From Neogemmobacter tilapiae (GTDB taxonomy: Bacteria > Pseudomonadota > Alphaproteobacteria > Rhodobacterales > Rhodobacteraceae), in NCBI RefSeq assembly GCF_014652215.1, contig NZ_BMYJ01000008.1, positions 62,001-126,000 on the forward strand: a stretch of DNA of 64,000 nt. The letters run 5' to 3'. The notes beneath the pieces are model-generated. The model did not search any database, had not been told where the DNA came from, and saw only the letters and a program-made list of their open reading frames with translations. The translations under genes and the position numbers were made by a program. Of this stretch, positions 3,621 through 14,700 are shown in pieces; the stretch's first letter is position 1; every line of letters starts with the position of its first letter.

Positions 3621-4375
3621 GCCAGCGTCAGTTCCACGCCTGCCGCCTCCAGCATCGCCCCCACATCACCGGGCGGCGGCGCATCCGTTACCAACCTCCG
3701 GATCGCCCCCGGCTCGCAAATCCGGATCGGTGCGCTTTGCCCGAACTTTGTTGCATCCACCACCATCACCGCCTCTTCCGCGCTGGCAATGATCGCCCGG
3801 CTGAATTCGGCCTCCCGCATATCTTGCAGCATAAAGCCTGAACGCGCATCCACCGCCTCGGCCGTCAACACTGCATGTTTGACCTTGAACTGCCCCACAA
3901 AGGCCAAAGCTTGTGCCCCAAACACCCCCCCGTCATGCGCCCGGATTTCACCGCCCGCCACAAAGACCCGATTGCCATTCCGCATCGCCAGCGCCTGGGC
4001 CACCATCAACGAATTCGTCACCACCATCAGATCGTGATGATCCCGCAAAGCCTGTGCCACATAGGTTGTCGTCGTTCCCACGTCCAGAAACAGCGACGCC
4101 CCGTTTTCCAGCATTCCCGCCAACCGTGCCGCAATCCGTCGCTTCGCCGTCGGGTTTACCCCCATCCGCACCGCAAAGGCCGCCTCATGCCCCGAATCCC
4201 GCAGATGCACGGCCCCATGCACCTTTGTTACCAGACCCTGCCCCTCCAGCCGCCGGATCGTCCGCCGGATCGTCTCTTCCGTCACATTCATCGCCCGCGC
4301 CAGATCCTGCACCCGCGCTTCTCCTGCCGGTTTCAGCAGCGCCAGCAATTGCCCTTCCCGTCGCGGTTCTGACAT
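3617..4375 (-). CDS. DeoR/GlpR-family transcriptional regulator
   Basis: Repressor of 252 residues. An N-terminal DeoR winged helix (residues ~5-58; VQDLARAMNVTEETIRRTIRRL) is followed by a DeoR C-terminal sensor domain with the phosphosugar-site segment FLDVGTTTTYVAQAL. The start at MSEPRREG is chosen because AGGA lies 7 bases upstream and homology begins there; an upstream in-frame extension is AT-rich and not protein-like. It is divergent from the phosphotransferase/flavoprotein genes and probably regulates them or itself. The effector is unknown; the family usually senses phosphorylated sugars or polyols. Confidence 0.88.
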   Translation of the reverse strand: MSEPRREGQLLALLKPAGEARVQDLARAMNVTEETIRRTIRRLEGQGLVTKVHGAVHLRDSGHEAAFAVRMGVNPTAKRRIAARLAGMLENGASLFLDVGTTTTYVAQALRDHHDLMVVTNSLMVAQALAMRNGNRVFVAGGEIRAHDGGVFGAQALAFVGQFKVKHAVLTAEAVDARSGFMLQDMREAEFSRAIIASAEEAVMVVDATKFGQSAPIRICEPGAIRRLVTDAPPPGDVGAMLEAAGVELTLA

Positions 4376-4809
4376 GTTGGAATTCCTGTTGTTATTTTGG
4401 TAATAGTAACGTTTACAATAGATAAAGCCACAACCATCCTGTAAAAACAACAAAAAACCCAAATTGGTTTTTGACACGACTCGCTTCCGGCGCGATGAAT
4501 TCTGTATTGGCCGGTGCCGGGGCATCCCGTGCAGACCCGCAACGTCCCATCAGGCGGGGACCGGTCGCGTGACAAAACTTTTTCCGGAAGATTCCCGCAT
4601 CTTGTGGACCGAGGATTGCGTATTGAGTGCCGGGATAGTGTGACCCGGATCTGATCTTGCCCCATGGGCTTGGTCAGCAACTTTTGGGGGGGAAGGCGCG
4701 TCTCTGCTTTCCCCCCAAATTGCCGCTAGGAACCTCTCGTCCAAATGCTTGAATTTGTGTCACTTTGCCTCAAGATGGGTTCGATGCCCGGCAAAGGAGT
4801 TTTGGCCGC
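4376..4809. other. Divergent promoter region with long structured leader
   Basis: No gene seen in these 434 bases. Bases ~4380-4480 are AT-rich and hold a near-palindrome GTAACGTTTAC (4407-4417). On the plus strand TTGACA near 4470, with ATGAAT about 18 bases on, looks like a promoter, giving a ~300-base leader for the phosphotransferase gene. The leader has a CCGGG/CCCGG hairpin near 4632-4650 and a 13-pair hairpin at 4683-4719 (one G-U), TTTGGGGGG pairing with CCCCCCAAA. No known riboswitch consensus was recognised. Confidence 0.5.
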
Positions 4810-5676
4810 ATGACGGCGATGGAAAAATTGCAGGCCCTGTCCTTCTGGCAGGGAAATGTGCGTGCTCAGCCTTTGAATGGTGGCATCACCAATGTGAATT
4901 TCGTGGCCGAAGATGACAGCGGCCGCTATGTCGTTCGCATCGGCGACGATATTCCCGTGCATCAGATCCTCCGTTTCAATGAACTGGCGGCCAGCCAGGC
5001 GGCCCATGCGGCCGGGGTTTCCCCAGCGGTCCGCCACGCCGAACAGGGTGCTCTGGTTCTCGATTTTATCGACGGTCGCACCTATGCCCCAGGCGATGTT
5101 CAAACCGATCTTGACAGTTGCATCAACCTTATCGCCCGCGCCCATCGCGACATCCCGAAATATCTGCGTGGTCCGGTCCTGTCGTTCTGGGTGTTCCATG
5201 TGATCCGCGACTACGCCAACCGCTTGATCGCCGAAGAAAGTCCCCACGCCCCCGCGCTCGCCCCCTTGCTGACCAAGGCCGAGGCGCTGGAACAGGCCGT
5301 CGGCCCCATCGACATCGTCTTTGGCCACAACGACCTTCTGCCCGCCAACTTCATGCGCGATGCGAACCGCCTTTGGCTGATTGACTGGGACTATGCCGGC
5401 TTCAACTCGCCGCTGTTCGATCTGGGCGGCCTCGCGGCCAACAACGCCCTTGCCGCGGATCAGGAAACCCACCTCCTCACCGCCTATTTCGACCGTCAGC
5501 CCGACCTTTCCCTGCTGCACCGCTATACTGCCATGAAAGCGGCCAGCGCATTGCGCGAAACCCTTTGGTCCATGGTCAGCGAAACCCATTCTGATCTCGA
5601 TTTCGACTATGCCCAATACACCGCCCAAAACCTTGCCACCTTCCAAGCCGCCTGGGATCACTTCATGCAAAGCTGA
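4810..5676 (+). CDS. Choline kinase-like phosphotransferase (APH fold)
   Basis: Small-molecule kinase of 288 residues. It has the aminoglycoside/choline-kinase catalytic loop GHNDLLPANFM (Brenner-type, catalytic Asp) and the Mg-binding segment LIDWDYAGFNSPLFDLG. It probably phosphorylates an alcohol such as choline or ethanolamine; the exact substrate is not readable. AAAGGAG lies about 10 bases before the ATG at 4810, which fixes this start over an upstream in-frame ATG. It is followed after 135 bases by the dimethylglycine-dehydrogenase-like gene, which supports a role in choline or methylamine metabolism (inference). Confidence 0.8.
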   Translation: MTAMEKLQALSFWQGNVRAQPLNGGITNVNFVAEDDSGRYVVRIGDDIPVHQILRFNELAASQAAHAAGVSPAVRHAEQGALVLDFIDGRTYAPGDVQTDLDSCINLIARAHRDIPKYLRGPVLSFWVFHVIRDYANRLIAEESPHAPALAPLLTKAEALEQAVGPIDIVFGHNDLLPANFMRDANRLWLIDWDYAGFNSPLFDLGGLAANNALAADQETHLLTAYFDRQPDLSLLHRYTAMKAASALRETLWSMVSETHSDLDFDYAQYTAQNLATFQAAWDHFMQS

Positions 5677-5811: not shown

Positions 5812-8244
5812 ATGTCCGACTTCCCCAACACCGCCCGCGTCGTTGTCATCGGTGGTGGCATCATTGGCTGCTCCACCGCCTATCATCTGGCGAAACTCGG
5901 CCTGACCGACACCGTCCTTCTGGAACGCGCCAAGCTCACCTCGGGCACGACCTTTCATGCCGCAGGCCTTGTCGGCCAACTCCGCACCTCGGCCAACATC
6001 ACCCAGCTTCTGGGCTATTCCGTCGATCTTTACCGCCGTCTTGAACAGGAAACCGGGTTGCAAACCGGCTGGAAGATGAACGGCGGTCTGCGGCTGGCCT
6101 GCAATGCCGACCGCTGGACCGAGGTGAAGCGTCAGGCCACCACGGCCCATTCCTTCGGCCTCGACATGCATCTTCTGACGCCCAAGGAAGCCCAAGAACT
6201 CTGGCCCCTGATGTCCATCGACGATCTGGTTGGTGCCGCCTATCTGCCGACCGACGGGCAGGCGAACCCTTCCGACATCACGCAGAGCCTTGCCAAAGGC
6301 GCCCGCATGGCCGGTGCCCGGATTTTCGAGGATACCCCCGTCACCCGCATCCTCGTCGAAGGCGGCAAGATCAAGGGTGTCGAAACCGCCCATGGTCTGA
6401 TCGCCTGCGAAAAGGTCGTCCTTTGTGCCGGCCAATGGACCCGCGCCTTGGCCGCCACCGTGGGCGTCAACGTCCCCCTCGTCAGCGTCGAACACCAATA
6501 TATGGTCACCGAACGCATCGAAGGCGTCACTTCGACCCTCCCCACCCTGCGCGATCCCGACCGCCGCACCTATTGGAAGGAAGAGGTCGGCGGTCTGGTC
6601 TGGGGCGGCTATGAGCCGAACCCCAAGCCCTGGGCCCAAAACGGCATCCCCGAAGGCTTTACCTTCCAACTGCTCGACAGCGATTTCGACCACTATTCCC
6701 AGTTCATGGCCGACGCCATCGCCCGCGTCCCGGCGCTGGAAACTGCGGGTGTCAAGCAACTAATCAACGGCCCCGAAAGCTTTACCCCCGACGGCAACTT
6801 CATCCTGGGCGAGGCCCCCGAACAGACCGGCCTGTTCATCGGCGCGGGCTTCAACGCCTTTGGCATCGCCTCGGGCGGCGGCGCGGGTATGGCCTTGGCC
6901 GAATGGGTCGCCACGGGCGCTGCCCCCTTTGACCTTTGGCCCGTCGACATCCGCCGCTTTGGCCGCATCCACGGTTCCACCTCATGGGTGCGGGAACGCA
7001 CGCTCGAGGCTTATGGCAAACACTACACCATCGCCTGGCCGTCCGAGGAAATGCAATCCGCCCGCCCCACCCGCCGCTCACCGCTTTACGCGCATCTTCG
7101 GGCCGCAGGGGCCTGCTTTGGCGAAAAGCTGGGTTGGGAACGTCCCAATTGGTTTGCAGGCCCCGGCCAAGAACCCAAGGACCGCTATTCCTATGGCCGC
7201 CCCGGCTGGTTCGATGCCGTCGCCCGCGAACACCATGCGGCGCGGAACGCCGCCGTGGTCTTCGACCAAACCTCTTTCGCCAAATTCATCCTAAAAGGCC
7301 CCGACGTCGCTGCCCGCCTGAACTGGATCGCTGCGGGCAATGTCGATCGCGCCGTGGGCAGCCTCACCTACACCCAGATGCTGAACCAAAAGGGCGGCAT
7401 CGAATGCGACCTGACCGTCGCCCGTCTGGCGCAGGACGAGTTCTACATCGTGACCGGTACCGGCTTTGCCACCCATGATTTCGACTGGATCGCCCGAAAC
7501 CTTGCTGACGCCCGCGCCGAATTGGTCGATGTCACCGGGGCCAATGCCGTCCTCTCCCTGATGGGCCCAAAGGCCCGCGACATCCTCTCCCGCATCTGCC
7601 CCGACGAGCTTTCCGCCCCCTTCGGCACCGCACGCCGCCTTTCCGTCGCCAACTGCCCCGTGCTGGCCCTGCGCGTCACCTATGTCGGTGAACTCGGCTG
7701 GGAACTCCACATGCCGGTCGAGGTCGCGGTGACGGTTTATGAGGCGCTGATGCAGGCCGGGGCAGGGGACGGGTTGATCAACGCCGGCTACCGCGCCATC
7801 GAAACCCTGCGCCTGGAAAAAGCCTATCGCGCCTGGGGCTCCGACATCGGCCCCGATCATACCCCGGTCGAGGCCGGCCTTGCCTGGGCCATGAAAATGA
7901 AATCCGGCATCGATTTCCAAGGCCGCGCCGCCGTCGCCCGTCAGCTCGAACAAGGTGTCACCAAACGCTTTGCCGGTTTCACCGTTGACGATCCCAACGT
8001 CACCCTCTGGGGCCGCGAGACGATCCTTCGCAACGGCGAAAGGGTCGGTTGGCTCTCCTCCGGCGGCTATGGCCATACTGTCGGCAAGTCGATTGGCTTC
8101 GGCTATGTCCGCAACAAGGACGGCGTCACGCCAGAGATGCTGACAACGGGGGAATGGGCCCTGGAAGTCGCCAGCGAAATCATCCCGGCCCAGATCCATT
8201 TGGAACCGCTCTATGACCCGCAGAATCAGCGGGTCAAGGGGTAA
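5812..8244 (+). CDS. Dimethylglycine/sarcosine dehydrogenase-like flavoprotein
   Basis: Two-part enzyme of 810 residues. The N-terminal ~430 residues are a DAO-type FAD oxidoreductase with dinucleotide motif VVVIGGGIIGCSTAYHL at residues ~11-27. SGTTFHAAGL (~residue 45) matches the region where mammalian dimethylglycine dehydrogenase links FAD covalently to His. The C-terminal ~370 residues are the GcvT-like folate-binding domain plus its barrel. Known relatives oxidatively demethylate N-methyl amines and pass the one-carbon unit to tetrahydrofolate. Dimethylglycine, sarcosine or a related N-methyl amine is the likely substrate. GAGG precedes the ATG. Confidence 0.88.
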   Translation: MSDFPNTARVVVIGGGIIGCSTAYHLAKLGLTDTVLLERAKLTSGTTFHAAGLVGQLRTSANITQLLGYSVDLYRRLEQETGLQTGWKMNGGLRLACNADRWTEVKRQATTAHSFGLDMHLLTPKEAQELWPLMSIDDLVGAAYLPTDGQANPSDITQSLAKGARMAGARIFEDTPVTRILVEGGKIKGVETAHGLIACEKVVLCAGQWTRALAATVGVNVPLVSVEHQYMVTERIEGVTSTLPTLRDPDRRTYWKEEVGGLVWGGYEPNPKPWAQNGIPEGFTFQLLDSDFDHYSQFMADAIARVPALETAGVKQLINGPESFTPDGNFILGEAPEQTGLFIGAGFNAFGIASGGGAGMALAEWVATGAAPFDLWPVDIRRFGRIHGSTSWVRERTLEAYGKHYTIAWPSEEMQSARPTRRSPLYAHLRAAGACFGEKLGWERPNWFAGPGQEPKDRYSYGRPGWFDAVAREHHAARNAAVVFDQTSFAKFILKGPDVAARLNWIAAGNVDRAVGSLTYTQMLNQKGGIECDLTVARLAQDEFYIVTGTGFATHDFDWIARNLADARAELVDVTGANAVLSLMGPKARDILSRICPDELSAPFGTARRLSVANCPVLALRVTYVGELGWELHMPVEVAVTVYEALMQAGAGDGLINAGYRAIETLRLEKAYRAWGSDIGPDHTPVEAGLAWAMKMKSGIDFQGRAAVARQLEQGVTKRFAGFTVDDPNVTLWGRETILRNGERVGWLSSGGYGHTVGKSIGFGYVRNKDGVTPEMLTTGEWALEVASEIIPAQIHLEPLYDPQNQRVKG

Positions 8245-9409: not shown

Positions 9410-9976
9410 GTGAAAGTCATCGCCTCGTCTTTGCGCAAGGGCAATGTCGTCGATCTGGACGGCCGCCTTTACGTCGTCCTCTCTGCCGCCAACTTCCACC
9501 CCGGCAAAGGCACCCCCACCACCTCGGTCGACATGCGCCGCATTTCCGATGGCGTCAAAGTCTCCGAACGCTGGCGCACCACCGAACAGGTCGAAAAGGC
9601 CACCGTTGACGAACGCGGCTACAACTTCCTTTACGAAGACGGCGAAGGCTTCCACTTCATGGAGCCCGAGACCTATGAACAACTCGCCGTCAGCGCCGAT
9701 GTCGTCGGCGACGGCAAGGTTTACCTGCAAGAAGGCATGTCCTGCATGTTGAAAACATTCGAGGGCGTCTGCATCGCCATCGAATTCCCCCAGCGCATCA
9801 CGGTTGAGATTACGGAAACCGAGCCTGTCGTCAAAGGCCAGACCGCCTCCTCCTCCTACAAGCCCGCCATGACCGACAGCGGCCTGCGCATCATGGTCCC
9901 CCCCCATATCGGCGCCGGCACCCGCGTCATCATCAACACCGACGACAATTCCTATGTGGAACGCGCCAAGGATTGA
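9410..9976 (+). CDS. efp: Translation elongation factor P
   Basis: Full-length EF-P (188 residues) with a KOW-like N-terminal domain and two OB folds. EF-P enters the ribosomal E site and rescues stalling at consecutive prolines. The loop HPGKGTP keeps Lys33, equivalent to E. coli Lys34, the residue beta-lysylated by EpmA, in line with epmA lying divergently 94 bases away. The C-terminal signature [18 protein letters not shown] is present. Translation starts at GTG 9410. A strong terminator follows at 10011. Confidence 0.97.
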
Positions 9977-10010
9977 TTTTTAGGGCCGGATAAAGGCTCA
10001 ACGAAAGTAG

Positions 10011-10036
10011 GGTGCGCCTTTAGGCGCACCTTTTTC
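10011..10036 (+). terminator. Intrinsic terminator of efp
   Basis: GGTGCGCCT and AGGCGCACC form a 9-base inverted repeat followed by TTTTTC. The arm sequence resembles the inner part of the nearby 10-12 kb palindromes, so it may descend from one. Confidence 0.85.
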
Positions 10037-10066: not shown

Positions 10067-10132
10067 CGTAGGGTGCGCATTCATGGCGCACCATCACGCC
10101 GCAAAAGGTGCGCCGTGAAGGCGCACCCTACG
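10067..10132. repeat. Palindromic repeat copy A
   Basis: 66 bp imperfect palindrome. Outer arms CGTAGGGTGCGC and GCGCACCCTACG are perfect; inner arms ATTCATGGCGCACC and GGTGCGCCGTGAAG have two mismatches. It ends 7 bases past the stop codon of the minus-strand gene at 10139. Related copies are at 10926 and 11941. Confidence 0.85.
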
Positions 10133-10138
10133 GCTCGC

Positions 10139-10828
10139 TTAGTCCTTCATGTAAGACTGAATTTGGCCGCGAACTGCCTGATCGATTTCGATAAAGGGGG
10201 GGACTTCAACGTATATATCAAGCTTGAAGTCATATCTGATTTTAAGATGTTTCTTTAGCCTGTATGATACCACGCAGAGCAAAGTGCATTGTGCGGTGAT
10301 AAAGTCTCCGATGGGGCTTTTGTACCTATCGGGCCAAATCCAGCCTCCGCCGACTGGGGGTGTATTCTGCCATCGCTGATATCGAAAACCCTCAATGGTT
10401 TGCGGATTGGATGTGGCGATGTGTTCAAAGTGCCTGTTCGCATATTCATCTTCATATTCCGGATTATAATGGTCTATGCGTAATTGCCACATCTTTACAC
10501 CAAAAGGCACTTTGAACATGTCGGTGACTTGCCCCAAGCGCGGCTCCACGAAGGTTCCGATGATTCCTCCAACTTCTACCGGCTCTTTCTGGCATGGAAG
10601 CCAACGTAGTCCGTCTGTTTGGCCGACTGGATAGGCTTCCCACCCCTGCGGTTGGGGCAGTGAGAAATCTGTGCGCTCCAGTTCGATACCATCCTTATCT
10701 CGCGCAACAATCGAAACCTCAAGCGTTTCGCCATAGCAGGCGTTCATATCGGTTCTTGGCGGCGTTTCTGCCCAAGCGCCGCCCGCCCAAACGACCGCCA
10801 CCAACCCCAAAGCCCAAACCCGCATCAT
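10139..10828 (-). CDS. Orphan exported protein, cassette gene 1
   Basis: Not recognised. 229 residues with a clear signal peptide (MMRVWALGLVAVVWAGGAWA, cleavage before ETPP). The mature part contains Cys near the start and a QCTLLCVV segment, many aromatic residues, and a C-terminal stretch rich in Lys, Tyr and Ile. Function unknown; location periplasmic or secreted. An ATG two codons upstream (10834) is possible; 10828 is chosen because it aligns with the start of the gene at 12038. Promoter, leader and signal peptide match that gene, but the mature sequences do not. Base composition is less GC-rich than the flanks. Confidence 0.68.
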   Translation of the reverse strand: MMRVWALGLVAVVWAGGAWAETPPRTDMNACYGETLEVSIVARDKDGIELERTDFSLPQPQGWEAYPVGQTDGLRWLPCQKEPVEVGGIIGTFVEPRLGQVTDMFKVPFGVKMWQLRIDHYNPEYEDEYANRHFEHIATSNPQTIEGFRYQRWQNTPPVGGGWIWPDRYKSPIGDFITAQCTLLCVVSYRLKKHLKIRYDFKLDIYVEVPPFIEIDQAVRGQIQSYMKD

Positions 10829-10860
10829 CCTCATTCCGTTCCCAGAAGCCCCCCGCTCAC

Positions 10861-10889
10861 ACTATTCGCTTGCGCACAAGGGCGGGTAA
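10861..10889 (-). promoter_or_regulatory. Promoter of cassette gene 1
   Basis: On the minus strand TTACCC (10884-10889), 17-base spacer, AATAGT (10861-10866). The same layout occurs before cassette gene 3 (TTGCTC, 17 bases, GATAGT), so the elements are conserved between duplicates. Confidence 0.55.
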
Positions 10890-10925
10890 TACCCTGCATG
10901 CGTGTGCGGCATTCTGAAGTGAAAA

Positions 10926-10989
10926 GTAGGGTGCGCCTTCATGGCGCAACCTTTGCACCAAAATGGTGCGCCATGAATGCGCACCCTAC
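10926..10989. repeat. Palindromic repeat copy B
   Basis: 64 bp imperfect palindrome starting GTAGGGTGCGCC and ending GCGCACCCTAC, lying between cassette genes 1 and 2. Followed by AGCTTGCTGATC, also seen after copy C and, less exactly, after copy A. Confidence 0.85.
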
Positions 10990-10999
10990 AGCTTGCTGA

Positions 11000-11800
11000 T
11001 CACTTCAACAAAATCAGCTTTCCATCTAGAACTATAAACCCGAATCTGTTGTCGTAAAAATTATTACTCTCAAAGCGTGGGACCGTATAAGATCCGATAA
11101 ACCCACGTCTATCAAGGCTTCTGGCGACAGACCTGCGGCACTTGTTAAAGTCTTTTGCCGCAAGAGTTTCTTTCCGAATTTTCTCGGACGAGGACAAGAC
11201 ACTCGCGGCCAAATCCTTCTCTGCCATAGCCTTGTCGTAGCTGGACTCACAACTGATCCAATCTGGATTATCAAAAAAATAGGCCATCAGCTCTTTGACA
11301 AAGTGCCCTATGTTGCCGCTGTGATCTCTTGTCGTAAGAGGGTCGTGCTTTATAGCGTGTGCAAAAGAGGTGGTGAAACGATCTGGAGACAAGTCGCTGA
11401 TGCTCGCAAAGTAGGATATCCAGCAGTTGGAGCCTTTAATAATGGCATAGCGCGCCTCTATCGTCGCATCTGATGTTTCTGAATATTTTATGATCTTGCG
11501 CTCACCTCTTATTTCAAGATGAACAGGGCTTCTTGCGACGACTGGGCCGCGCGGGGGCGTGCCGCATTGTCGCGTTGGAATATAGGATGAATCTGGTTCA
11601 GTTTGGCCGTAGGCTTGGTGTGGTATTCCCAAAAAGATGAATATCGTAAATATAGCTTTAGCGAGATAAGATGACCTTGCGGTGAAGTGTCTTGTCTCGT
11701 CACAGGATGAATGTCCGTATGTTGATGCCGCCCGGTCCGACGTGTCGGGGCCAAAATCTTGATAAGGCCGGAGGAATTTCTGCAACATGGGTAATATCAT
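11000..11800 (-). CDS. Orphan protein, cassette gene 2
   Basis: Not recognised. Up to 266 residues, visibly richer in A+T than its surroundings. A hydrophobic stretch YLAKAIFTIFIFLGIPHQAYG at residues ~45-65 looks like a signal peptide, but no in-frame ATG, GTG or TTG sits close in front of it. Either the N-terminus is long or the true start is lost or unusual. The rest is Ser/Lys/Asp-rich with several Cys (CGTPP, NCWIS, SCESS, KCRRS). Codon use suggests recent acquisition. The stop is 11 bases from repeat copy B. Confidence 0.5.
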   Translation of the reverse strand: MILPMLQKFLRPYQDFGPDTSDRAASTYGHSSCDETRHFTARSSYLAKAIFTIFIFLGIPHQAYGQTEPDSSYIPTRQCGTPPRGPVVARSPVHLEIRGERKIIKYSETSDATIEARYAIIKGSNCWISYFASISDLSPDRFTTSFAHAIKHDPLTTRDHSGNIGHFVKELMAYFFDNPDWISCESSYDKAMAEKDLAASVLSSSEKIRKETLAAKDFNKCRRSVARSLDRRGFIGSYTVPRFESNNFYDNRFGFIVLDGKLILLK

Positions 11801-11940
11801 TTATGCTTCGTGGATTTATGATGATCGCAATCATAGCGACTTTCAGACAGATTTCAAGCCGCTGGACGGCCTAATTGTCGAGCCTTTGGGTTAAGACTTT
11901 TTGATTTTTCGTTGCAGGGTTAACTAGTGGATCATTGACC

Positions 11941-12007
11941 TGTAGGGTGCGCATTCATGGCGCTCCTTTTATGCTAAAAATGGTTCACCATGAATGCGCA
12001 CTCTATA
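11941..12007. repeat. Palindromic repeat copy C (degenerate)
   Basis: ~67 bp copy starting TGTAGGGTGCGC and ending GCGCACTCTATA. It has more mismatches than A and B. It lies between cassette genes 2 and 3. Confidence 0.8.
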
Positions 12008-12037
12008 GCTTGCTAATCGTGGTGATGAAAGCAAGTG

Positions 12038-12832
12038 TCATTTTATCATCCAAGTGCAGAAGGCCAGTTGAACGAAACCATCAGCGCGGACACCGAAAAT
12101 TTCCGCGCCAAACGAAGTTTCGCCTTGTTCTGGGTATTCAGAGTTTGTCGAATACAATGATGTGAGGGCGATTTTTGGTTGGGCCGATGTGAACAGCGCG
12201 ATGTCTATTGGCCCGTTCTGGGCTGTCTGCGCAGGTTCTGCGTGGAAAAAGACCGCTCCATAGCGGTAGCTAGTCAGTCCGCCGCTGCCATTGTCGGTTT
12301 CGCGATAATCCATTTCCCACATGAAGGTTTGAAAATGCGGCAAGCGTTCGTAACGCTGAAAATCCCGCATCTGATATCTGACGCTTCTTCCGTTATTAAA
12401 AATGTCCGAGTCACAGTACGATGTTCTCGGGTCGTCGAAATCGCAGAAAAGTGTCAGGCGATATTCATAGCGATACCGCCCTGGACCACCCTGAAGATAG
12501 TTTCCAAAAACGACCAACTCATCCTTGCCATTCGCATCAACGTCGGTGCTTTGATAGACCATCCGTTCATAGCTTAGAACGGGCTTCGGACTTTCCTGTT
12601 CGAAAGCATTTTCCACCATCCCGGTCGCTGCTTCAAAGGCGGGATCATGGACGCGCCAACCATACTTCTCGGCGACACCTTGGGTAAAAAGCGCCTTCCG
12701 GTCGGCGAAGGACTGTTCCAGGAGGTCCGTGGGCAGATTATCACACTCAGATCCATTTCGTGCAAGCCCTTCAGCCCCAGCACACCCAACCCAGACCACC
12801 GCTACCAACCCAAAAGCCCAAACCCGCATCAT
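12038..12832 (-). CDS. Orphan exported protein, cassette gene 3
   Basis: Not recognised. 264 residues with signal peptide MMRVWAFGLVAVVWVGCAGA. The mature region has DVDANGKDELVVFGNY, reminiscent of FG-GAP/VCBS-type calcium-binding loops, then an aromatic-rich beta-like C-terminal half. GGAAGGGA lies 6 bases before the ATG. Promoter and signal peptide are homologous to cassette gene 1 over ~140 bp (12781-12920 versus 10777-10915), while the mature proteins are unrelated by eye. It probably encodes a periplasmic or secreted protein of unknown role. Confidence 0.68.
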   Translation of the reverse strand: MMRVWAFGLVAVVWVGCAGAEGLARNGSECDNLPTDLLEQSFADRKALFTQGVAEKYGWRVHDPAFEAATGMVENAFEQESPKPVLSYERMVYQSTDVDANGKDELVVFGNYLQGGPGRYRYEYRLTLFCDFDDPRTSYCDSDIFNNGRSVRYQMRDFQRYERLPHFQTFMWEMDYRETDNGSGGLTSYRYGAVFFHAEPAQTAQNGPIDIALFTSAQPKIALTSLYSTNSEYPEQGETSFGAEIFGVRADGFVQLAFCTWMIK

Positions 12833-12865
12833 CCTGATTCCCTTCCCAGAATCCTGCCCGCTGAC

Positions 12866-12894
12866 ACTATCTGATTGCGCTAAGTGGGGAGCAA
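12866..12894 (-). promoter_or_regulatory. Promoter of cassette gene 3
   Basis: Minus strand TTGCTC (12889-12894), 17-base spacer, GATAGT (12866-12871); conserved before cassette gene 1. Confidence 0.55.
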
Positions 12895-13009
12895 TACCCT
12901 TTATGCGTGCGCAGCATTCTTTGGGAGGTCGAGGGGGGACTACAGTGGAAATCTGTTAACCATGCCACCCTTGCCACAATGTTTTTATGAAAAAACAATC
13001 CCTTGCACT

Positions 13010-13027
13010 CTTTTCACGCGTGAAAAG
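13010..13027. repeat. 18 bp palindrome with TTTCACGCGTGAAA core, copy 1
   Basis: Perfect 18-base palindrome. The same 14-base core recurs at 30933-30954 and 53546-53561, always outside genes. Confidence 0.8.
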
Positions 13028-13030
13028 CAA

Positions 13031-13054
13031 AACGCCGCCCCAAGGGGCGGCGTT
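13031..13054 (-). terminator. Terminator of the GH43/sugar operon
   Basis: Perfect 11-pair stem AACGCCGCCCC / GGGGCGGCGTT with loop of 2, followed on the minus strand by TTGCTTTTC. It lies just beyond the GH43 stop. Confidence 0.85.
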
Positions 13055-13073
13055 TCTTGCGGTCTTGAAAACC

Positions 13074-14639
13074 TCAGCCCGGCCAATATCCGAACCGGCT
13101 GAAATCGGCGGTCCAGCCTTGCCCGGTCACATCATGGGCGAACATCCCGACAAAGGCCCCGGTAAAGGACGCATGCTCCCCCTTGCCCCCCTCATCCGTG
13201 ATGATCTTGGCATCGAGTTCCGGCCCCACAGCCGCCCCGTTCAACGTGAACTGCTGGCTGGCCCCGCGAACCTCCACCCCAATCGTGACCGGCCCGGATT
13301 GCGGCATTTCATAGCGACCGTGATAGGTCAGTTTCGTGGTCTGCCAGTCCCCCAGACAAGAACAGACAACCAGCATCTTGCGGCCTTCTTCATGGCTGAC
13401 GAGGGCCATGTGGAACTTGTGGCGGTTATAATAGGTGGCCAACCCCGCCGCCTGCTGCCAGGTCTGCGGGTCCGCCTCGACCACACATTTCGCCCGATAA
13501 TGGTGATGCTCCTGCCGCCGCGCGACGAGGGCCTGCTCAAACCACGACCCCATACTCTCCCGCCCCGTCAGCCGCAGGGCTTGGCCGGTCAGCTTGAACA
13601 ACCGCTCCGGCTCGGGCGTCCGCAGCCACTGATAATCCATGGGAAGGTCGGCCATGGTGAAATCATGGACCACGGGCAGGTCGGGTTTCTTTTCGGCGGG
13701 CATCGGGATGGTCATCGGGGGCACAAACCCGCCGCCTTCCAGATAGAGCCAATCATCCCGCCATTCCACCCGCGCCAGCCCCGTCTCGCGACCCATCGGG
13801 CAATAGCGCCCCTCGGGCAGGGGGCGGCCGCACAGAAAGCTGTGCCAATGGCTGCCATCGGCGGCCTCGACATACTGGCCATGGCCCACCCGTTGCAGCG
13901 GGCTTTCCGGGTTGAAACGGGCGGTCAGCACATGTTTGTCTGGATGGGTTTCATAGGGGCCAGTGATCGAACGTGACCGGGCCAGGCTCACGGCATGGTC
14001 ATAGCCGGTGCCACCTTCGGCGATGGTCAGGTAATAGTAACCGTTGCGCTTGAACAGATGCGGCGCCTCGCCCAGACCCAGGTCAGTACCCTGCCAAAGG
14101 TCCACCACCGGCCCCATCAGCCCTTTGACCGGGTCCCATTCTTGCAGAATGATCCCATCAAAGCTGTCATTCTTCGGGTTGCCGCCCGTGCCCGAACCGC
14201 GATGGTTCCAGCGCATGTTGATGAAGTACTTGCGGCCATCATCATCATGGAACAGCGAAGGGTCAAAGCCCGAGGCGTTGACATAGATCGGGTCGGACCA
14301 TTCACCGTCAATCGTGTCGCAGGTGACGATATAGTTGTAGGCGTCCTTGAACGAACCCTCCAGCCGTTTCACGTCGGTATAGACCAGCCAGAATTTGCCG
14401 TCGGCATGGGAAAGGCAGGGCGCCCAGATGCCGCAGCTGTCCGGGTTGCCGCGCATGTCCAACTGCGCCTTGCGTCGCAGGGGGCGGCTGACCAGCGTCC
14501 AGTTCACCAGATCGCGGGAATGGTGGATCTGGACGCCGGGATACCATTCGAAGGTGGAGGTCGCGAGGTAGTAGTCATCCCCCACGCGGATAAAGGACGG
14601 GTCGGGGTTAAAACCGGGCAAGACGGGGTTCTGGATCAT
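13074..14639 (-). CDS. Glycoside hydrolase family 43 (beta-xylosidase/arabinofuranosidase-like)
   Basis: Cytoplasmic (no signal peptide) exo-glycosidase of 521 residues. A five-bladed GH43 propeller begins NPVLPGFNPDPSFIRVGDDYY (catalytic base Asp13). ASGFDPSLFHDDDGR carries the pKa-modulating Asp, and GLGEAPHLF the acid Glu. A C-terminal beta-sandwich of ~200 residues is typical of XynB-like GH43 xylosidases. Start at MIQNPV; AGGTAGGC precedes it. Last gene of the minus-strand sugar operon, with a terminator beyond. It probably releases xylose or arabinose units from imported oligosaccharides; specificity within GH43 is not decidable by eye. Confidence 0.85.
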   Translation of the reverse strand: MIQNPVLPGFNPDPSFIRVGDDYYLATSTFEWYPGVQIHHSRDLVNWTLVSRPLRRKAQLDMRGNPDSCGIWAPCLSHADGKFWLVYTDVKRLEGSFKDAYNYIVTCDTIDGEWSDPIYVNASGFDPSLFHDDDGRKYFINMRWNHRGSGTGGNPKNDSFDGIILQEWDPVKGLMGPVVDLWQGTDLGLGEAPHLFKRNGYYYLTIAEGGTGYDHAVSLARSRSITGPYETHPDKHVLTARFNPESPLQRVGHGQYVEAADGSHWHSFLCGRPLPEGRYCPMGRETGLARVEWRDDWLYLEGGGFVPPMTIPMPAEKKPDLPVVHDFTMADLPMDYQWLRTPEPERLFKLTGQALRLTGRESMGSWFEQALVARRQEHHHYRAKCVVEADPQTWQQAAGLATYYNRHKFHMALVSHEEGRKMLVVCSCLGDWQTTKLTYHGRYEMPQSGPVTIGVEVRGASQQFTLNGAAVGPELDAKIITDEGGKGEHASFTGAFVGMFAHDVTGQGWTADFSRFGYWPG

Positions 14640-14665
14640 GTGCCTACCTGTTGTTTTATGTGGTT

Positions 14666-14700
14666 GGGGCGGGGCCAAGGGTTTCCCCAAGCCCCGCCCC
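14666..14700 (-). terminator. GC hairpin between Gfo/Idh/MocA and GH43 genes
   Basis: Perfect 10-pair stem GGGGCGGGGC / GCCCCGCCCC with 15-base loop. No T-run; probably lowers or partitions GH43 expression within the operon. Confidence 0.5.

Follow-up and report, generated by a model that had tools for sequence, protein, structure and literature searches.

Organization of the array in the window

The window, a 64,000-nucleotide stretch corresponding to C8:62001-126000 of the Neogemmobacter tilapiae genome (3.62 Mb in 27 contigs), has a GC content of 62.0% and contains three minus-strand genes, referred to here as genes 1, 2 and 3, whose features are listed in Table 1. As the first-pass annotation had proposed, each of the three genes has a palindrome behind its stop codon, at a distance of 7 bases for gene 1, 10 bases for gene 2 and about 30 bases for gene 3. 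Genes 1 and 3 also share a common 5' stretch, here termed the head, and comparison of positions 10766-10915 with 12770-12920 gave 79.5% identity over 151 columns (E value 4e-32). The mature proteins behind these two heads are dissimilar, with nothing above noise found using blastp or phmmer. None of the three proteins matched a Pfam or NCBIfam family at E values up to 1, and the seven Rfam matches obtained with a loose threshold between positions 9900 and 13100 each fell under the gathering score of their family. The original observation holds and extends further, to three more heads and two more repeats on contig C7 and to the single REP at the efp-proximal end of the array.

The single REP probably doubles as the terminator of the gene named efp in the first-pass annotation (9410-9976), judging from its hairpin and the T-run that follows. 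At the other end of the array, a GC-rich hairpin (13030-13055) lies behind a minus-strand gene (13074-14690), of which it is probably the terminator. A short palindrome, TTTCACGCGTGAAA, is present at positions 13010-13027 and recurs intergenically at L059:5176-5192 (contig C2) and near L057:5914 (contig C7) and L058:9394 (contig C5).

Table 1. Features of the array in the window (positions are those of the window)
Feature	Position	Strand	Basis or remark
Single REP, behind the gene named efp	10007-10034		93% over 29 columns to one arm of the REPIN at 10068
REPIN behind gene 1	10068-10131		Palindrome search, folding, REPIN model
Gene 1, head (signal peptide) plus orphan mature part, 231 aa	10139-10834	-	ORF; no family
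Head of gene 1: promoter-like region, ribosome-binding region, signal peptide	10766-10916	-	Head model and alignment
REPIN behind gene 2, directly before the head of gene 1	10926-10989		Palindrome search, folding, REPIN model
REPIN-head composite	10766-11000	-	86.9% over 237 columns to L057:8115-8351, contig C7
Gene 2, orphan without the shared head, GC 46.9%	11000-11800	-	ORF; no family
REPIN behind gene 3	11942-12005		Palindrome search, folding, REPIN model
Gene 3, head plus orphan mature part, 264 aa	12038-12832	-	ORF; no family
Head of gene 3	12769-12920	-	Head model and alignment
Upstream region common only to the head of gene 3 and the first head of the C7 array	12921-13033	-	Whole match 12804-13033, 77.8%, 234 columns

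The palindromes are REPINs

Each half of the palindrome is a REP, consisting of GTAG followed by a short hairpin, and two such REPs in inverted orientation form one long hairpin. The GTAG was unchanged in all 11 aligned REPIN copies, and an isolated REP folds as a hairpin behind its GTAG. Folded as single-stranded DNA, the three REPINs of the window gave z scores of -9.2, -10.6 and -7.1 against shuffled sequences, and for none of them did any of 200 shuffles reach the same stability. The palindromes are REPINs, in which two REPs with GTAG at the foot are paired in inverted order; they show the structural REPIN features that were tested, and the copy number is low. Using a REPIN model, 16 places were identified in the genome at E values up to 1e-3 and 19 at E values up to 1, and 30 REP half-sites were found with up to one mismatch. 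REP copy number is given as usually over 100 (PMC2817692), with many REP families described as having 20 to 100 copies or fewer (PMC3733652). REPs are also described as sitting close behind the 3' ends of genes (PMC3733652), so the position of the REPINs just behind the genes of the array is ordinary.

The REPIN model matched 34 of 393 other genomes of the family at E values up to 1e-6, and at 5 of 29 such loci examined (one per genome) a RAYT relative sharing 51 to 70% identity was located beside the match. In the genome studied here, a RAYT open reading frame on contig C2 (L059:5377-5844) has REPINs on both sides. It was assigned to NCBIfam NF047646 (183 bits, cut-off 80) and matched the structure of E. 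coli TnpA-REP (PDB 4er8) with an E value of 2.5e-40; against Pfam it scored 20.5 bits, under the cut-off of 23. A search of the genome for the Y1 transposase family returned one match, a second RAYT on contig C9 (L084; C9:130385-130738), which is 52% identical to the C2 RAYT. Enzymes related to RAYT are described as cleaving single-stranded DNA at CT close to REPs and joining strands in vitro (PMC8266576). RAYT would account for the REPINs, and it is possible that it moved the head too. The notion of the repeat as a cassette boundary stands in that the repeat recurs as the edge of a unit, and falls in that the repeat is not special to genes 1 to 3, being a REPIN with a RAYT in the genome.

REPINs are arranged in four arrays

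Twelve of the 16 REPIN places fall in four arrays, located in the window and on contigs C7 (L057), C5 (L058) and C2 (L059), with intervals from REPIN to REPIN of about one gene each. Eight pairs of neighboring REPINs were observed within 1.1 kb, compared with 0.07 expected at random and at most 2 such pairs in 20,000 runs of a random-placement simulation, which ignores the preference of REPs for intergenic DNA and consequently overstates the surprise. The C5 array contains two small orphans followed by two zinc-ribbon-like paralogs that score just under the Pfam cut-off, while the C2 array consists of the RAYT followed by a 100-aa orphan. As REPINs and REPs outside the arrays also adjoin ordinary genes, the association between REPINs and orphans is incomplete. 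Among the matches listed for other genomes there was a single REPIN pair within 1.1 kb (G293, 185 bp apart), in a search that scored 13 candidates per genome under stricter filters, recovered 13 of the genome's own 35 matches and could have missed arrays elsewhere.

Two further genes were observed beside REPs or REPINs. On contig C14, a 380-aa gene with 40% GC (L061:4163-5305, minus strand) lies between a REP and a REPIN (region 3846-5490), next to what we take to be lepA. On contig C1 (L060:4601-5106), about five bases separate the end of a REPIN from the 3' terminus of a 145-aa open reading frame with a signal-like start (4669-5106, minus strand), and the gene beside it is presumably prfC.

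A proposed promoter-export head shared by different genes

A search of the genome with a sequence model of the head identified five copies with E values from 3e-39 to 1e-22, the next best match having an E value of 0.08. Two copies are in the window and three in the C7 array, in tandem within each array. Those on C7 precede a protein of the FGE-sulfatase family and a 177-aa orphan, while the third is not followed by a gene: it has the promoter-like and ribosome-binding regions, lacks a start codon and continues into an opposite-strand gene at that gene's 3' end. Local alignments between pairs of heads were 77 to 94% identical, some extending into the upstream repeat or region. The four coding heads agree at every base of their first six codons. 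Head similarity ends variously at the start codon, inside the signal peptide or at the end of the signal peptide. The promoter was called by eye from two hexamer-like stretches and is accordingly described as promoter-like. By eye, the signal peptides have end sites of the A-x-A type and no clear lipobox. In two of the C7 heads a run of nine C residues (L057:6048-6056 and 8230-8238) lies between the promoter-like hexamers, and this run is possibly a spacer of variable length.

The suggestion that the head might precede other, unrelated bodies was borne out, in the host genome only. No head was seen in 393 other genomes of the family, with two candidates scored per genome, so the arrangement is not invariant across relatives. 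The head pattern was not found in viral contigs, nor the REPIN-head stretch in plasmids. Five matches of 21 to 50 bp outside the host genome were rejected, as they look like unrelated sequence on reading. The head core pattern also hit two loci in a species collection (Pseudomonas and Sandaracinaceae), and these too were discarded, being alike over only 24 to 32 bp around the pattern; the collection may omit the host genome or near genomes. The case is so far seen in this genome only, with one genome of the genus compared.

Bodies behind the heads

No pairwise similarity above noise was identified by blastp or phmmer among the ten bodies of the arrays in this genome. The anticipated counterevidence, homology of genes 1 and 3 by profile, did not appear with Pfam, NCBIfam, blastp or phmmer. 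Predicted structures of the mature parts were of low confidence, with pLDDT values of 38 for gene 3 and 35 for gene 1. GC contents of the window bodies are 49.2% for gene 1 and 51.0% for gene 3, gene 2 having the value given in Table 1; those of the C7 bodies are 57.7% for the FGE-sulfatase family body, 46.2% for a reversed gene and 48.6% for the 177-aa body.

Relatives of the FGE-sulfatase family body (PF03781, E value 1.2e-39) were identified in 19 of 294 other genomes at E values up to 1e-20, the best sharing 69% identity, and there are two paralogs in its own genome. Inspection by eye of ten FGE loci (nine from other genomes and one own paralog) revealed no head DNA. Gene 1 had one weak match in 294 other family genomes, 38% over 64 residues including the signal peptide. 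The eight further bodies, those of C5 and C2 among them, were searched as one joined query against 393 other genomes with two candidates scored per genome, a search that recovered the own copies of three of the eight, namely genes 2 and 3 and the reversed C7 gene. Within this limit, absence of relatives applies to genes 2 and 3 alone; relatives of the reversed C7 gene, at 28 to 31% identity, occurred in four genomes, and a 56-residue part of the 177-aa C7 body was matched in one other genome. Genes 1, 2 and 3 were not found in plasmids, and no match of gene 3 was confirmed in viral contigs.

Behind the 177-aa head gene on C7, an overlapping 244-aa open reading frame has an HExxH-like motif (by eye) and continues in another frame as a 504-aa repeat-rich open reading frame (L057:8819-10991). 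The interruption falls at seven consecutive G residues (9506-9512) and represents a frameshift, a switch or a sequence error.

Junction between REPIN and head

A REPIN is located directly upstream of three of the five heads, and by eye the junction is the same in all three: CCCTAC or CCTTAC, followed by TTTTMAC..CAGAATGC. The border present on that side of other REPINs was, by eye, absent at these junctions. The match between the composite in the window and its counterpart on C7 is unbroken (Table 1). The sharing of one junction by three of the five heads suggests that REPIN and head were copied together, as a piece of about 235 bp. The remaining two heads, each the first of its array, have a different upstream region in common (Table 1).

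The REPIN beside the head of gene 1 shares 91 to 92% identity with two C5 REPINs and 88% with the head-linked C7 REPIN, which argues against a simple joint move of REPIN and head. For the head-linked C7 REPIN, on the other hand, the nearest is the one beside the head of gene 1 (88%), the others reaching at most 85%. The common junction is the stronger argument of the two.

Origin of the array

We interpret the locus as a REPIN-punctuated array of mostly low-GC orphans in which one promoter and signal peptide head has been copied before different bodies, a reading to which we assign a probability of roughly 60%. The likeliest course of events is that, within this lineage, different bodies received copies of the head or the bodies following a head were exchanged for others. 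The identity of the first six codons in front of unrelated bodies argues for copying of the head, as do the GC contents of the bodies (46 to 51%, with the FGE-sulfatase family body above this range) relative to that of the window, and the head before an opposite-strand gene, as an imprecise event would leave. The absence of the head at the FGE loci adds weak support, since signal peptides change fast. Selection on the promoter and signal peptide could, however, have kept the heads alike. The proposal of modular exchange in the first-pass annotation agrees with one head preceding four bodies without detectable relation, one of them in a named family; the repeat to which it was tied is not specific to these genes. 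The repeat does act as a boundary of units, as the REPIN-head composite recurs and a tandem duplication in the C5 array (777 columns, 90%) extends approximately from one repeat to another.

The array may have started from an exported-protein gene with the longer upstream region now found first in each array. A REPIN would then have come to lie just upstream of one copy of the head, and the combined piece would have been copied elsewhere, most simply by homologous recombination or gene conversion, for which REPINs and heads would offer the homology. Alternatively, in the last step whole genes may have been duplicated and their bodies then replaced. A point against this account is that head similarity ends at different places, leaving no defined far end. 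By either route, incoming genes of foreign make-up would acquire an export signal together with a promoter and ribosome-binding site.

Plain tandem or segmental duplication of one exported-protein gene could also give heads in tandem and the longer upstream region common to the first heads of both arrays. Mature parts would then have diverged past recognition while promoter and signal peptide were kept, with REPINs, which commonly settle behind genes (PMC3733652), inserted later; with structural models of low confidence, the mature parts may have a common fold. Such an origin sits poorly with the occurrence of an FGE-sulfatase family body, with relatives at up to 69% identity in other family genomes, beside bodies that match no family, with the conservation of noncoding parts and synonymous positions in the heads while the bodies show nothing, and with the single junction common to the REPIN-head fusions, and we consider it rather unlikely. 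Movement by RAYT itself, taking REPIN and head as one-ended single-strand cargo and placing a start kit before other genes, would draw on the GTAG-footed REPINs and RAYT in the genome, on the composite and on the in vitro activities of related enzymes (PMC8266576). No common site was identified at the far end of the head, however, REPIN similarity does not clearly track head similarity and target-site evidence was not obtained, leaving this mechanism quite improbable.

A locus of phase or antigenic variation in the manner of mycoplasma Vpma/Vsp, with conserved 5' regions recombining to switch bodies, was also considered. The layout, in which a conserved 5' region with signal peptide is followed by proteins that differ (PMC2268961), the head without a gene and the nine-C run between hexamers in two heads are in keeping with it, but each head has its own promoter-like sequence, and differences of 6 to 23% in local alignments of the heads are not suggestive of frequent exchange; switching of this kind is very improbable here. 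Copying of one head before different bodies, in an array punctuated by REPINs, remains the preferred reading. A more ambitious form of it would have REPINs delimit gene cassettes, with REPIN, promoter, ribosome-binding site and signal peptide forming a mobile start kit, placed before new genes by RAYT or by REPIN-guided recombination and so building arrays of exported orphans; we put this forward tentatively, as an unlikely extension.

Comparison with known systems

The array bears on the question of how genes that are foreign or newly born come to have a functional promoter and an export signal. The head, seen in this genome only, stands before four bodies that show no detectable relation to one another, and three of its five copies are fused to a REPIN, which makes it a concrete case for the comparison of strains. 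It also gives a hint of a possible use of REPIN/RAYT systems, which are described as having little evidence of a benefit to the host (PMC8049555). Among the literature matches listed, no report was found of a REPIN joined to a promoter and signal peptide module, to cassettes or to orphan genes. Sequence-variable mosaics of phytoplasmas were dropped as a parallel, since they are described as mobile gene clusters.

In integron cassette arrays each unit holds about one gene and ends in a palindrome; here the palindromes are REPINs, and the heads carry promoter-like sequence. In mobile promoters, reportedly described by Matus-Garcia and others in 2012, promoter sequence is copied within a genome before different genes, whereas the piece copied here includes a signal peptide and, in three of the five copies, a REPIN. 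As in the mycoplasma Vpma/Vsp loci (PMC2268961), bodies that differ from one another follow a conserved 5' region with signal peptide and lie in clusters. In contrast to Vpma/Vsp, there is a promoter-like sequence in each head, the copies occupy two separate loci, REPINs act as separators and there is no known switching. REPtrons, that is, GTAG-type REPs and REPINs with their RAYT, are alike in the GTAG foot, the paired inverted REPs, the bracketed RAYT and the place behind gene 3' ends, and differ from the present system in its low copy number, its four arrays with about one gene per interval and its three places fused to a promoter and signal peptide head. Compared with the tandem REPIN clusters described for Pseudomonas fluorescens (PMC3116915), the REPINs of these arrays are spaced by single genes.
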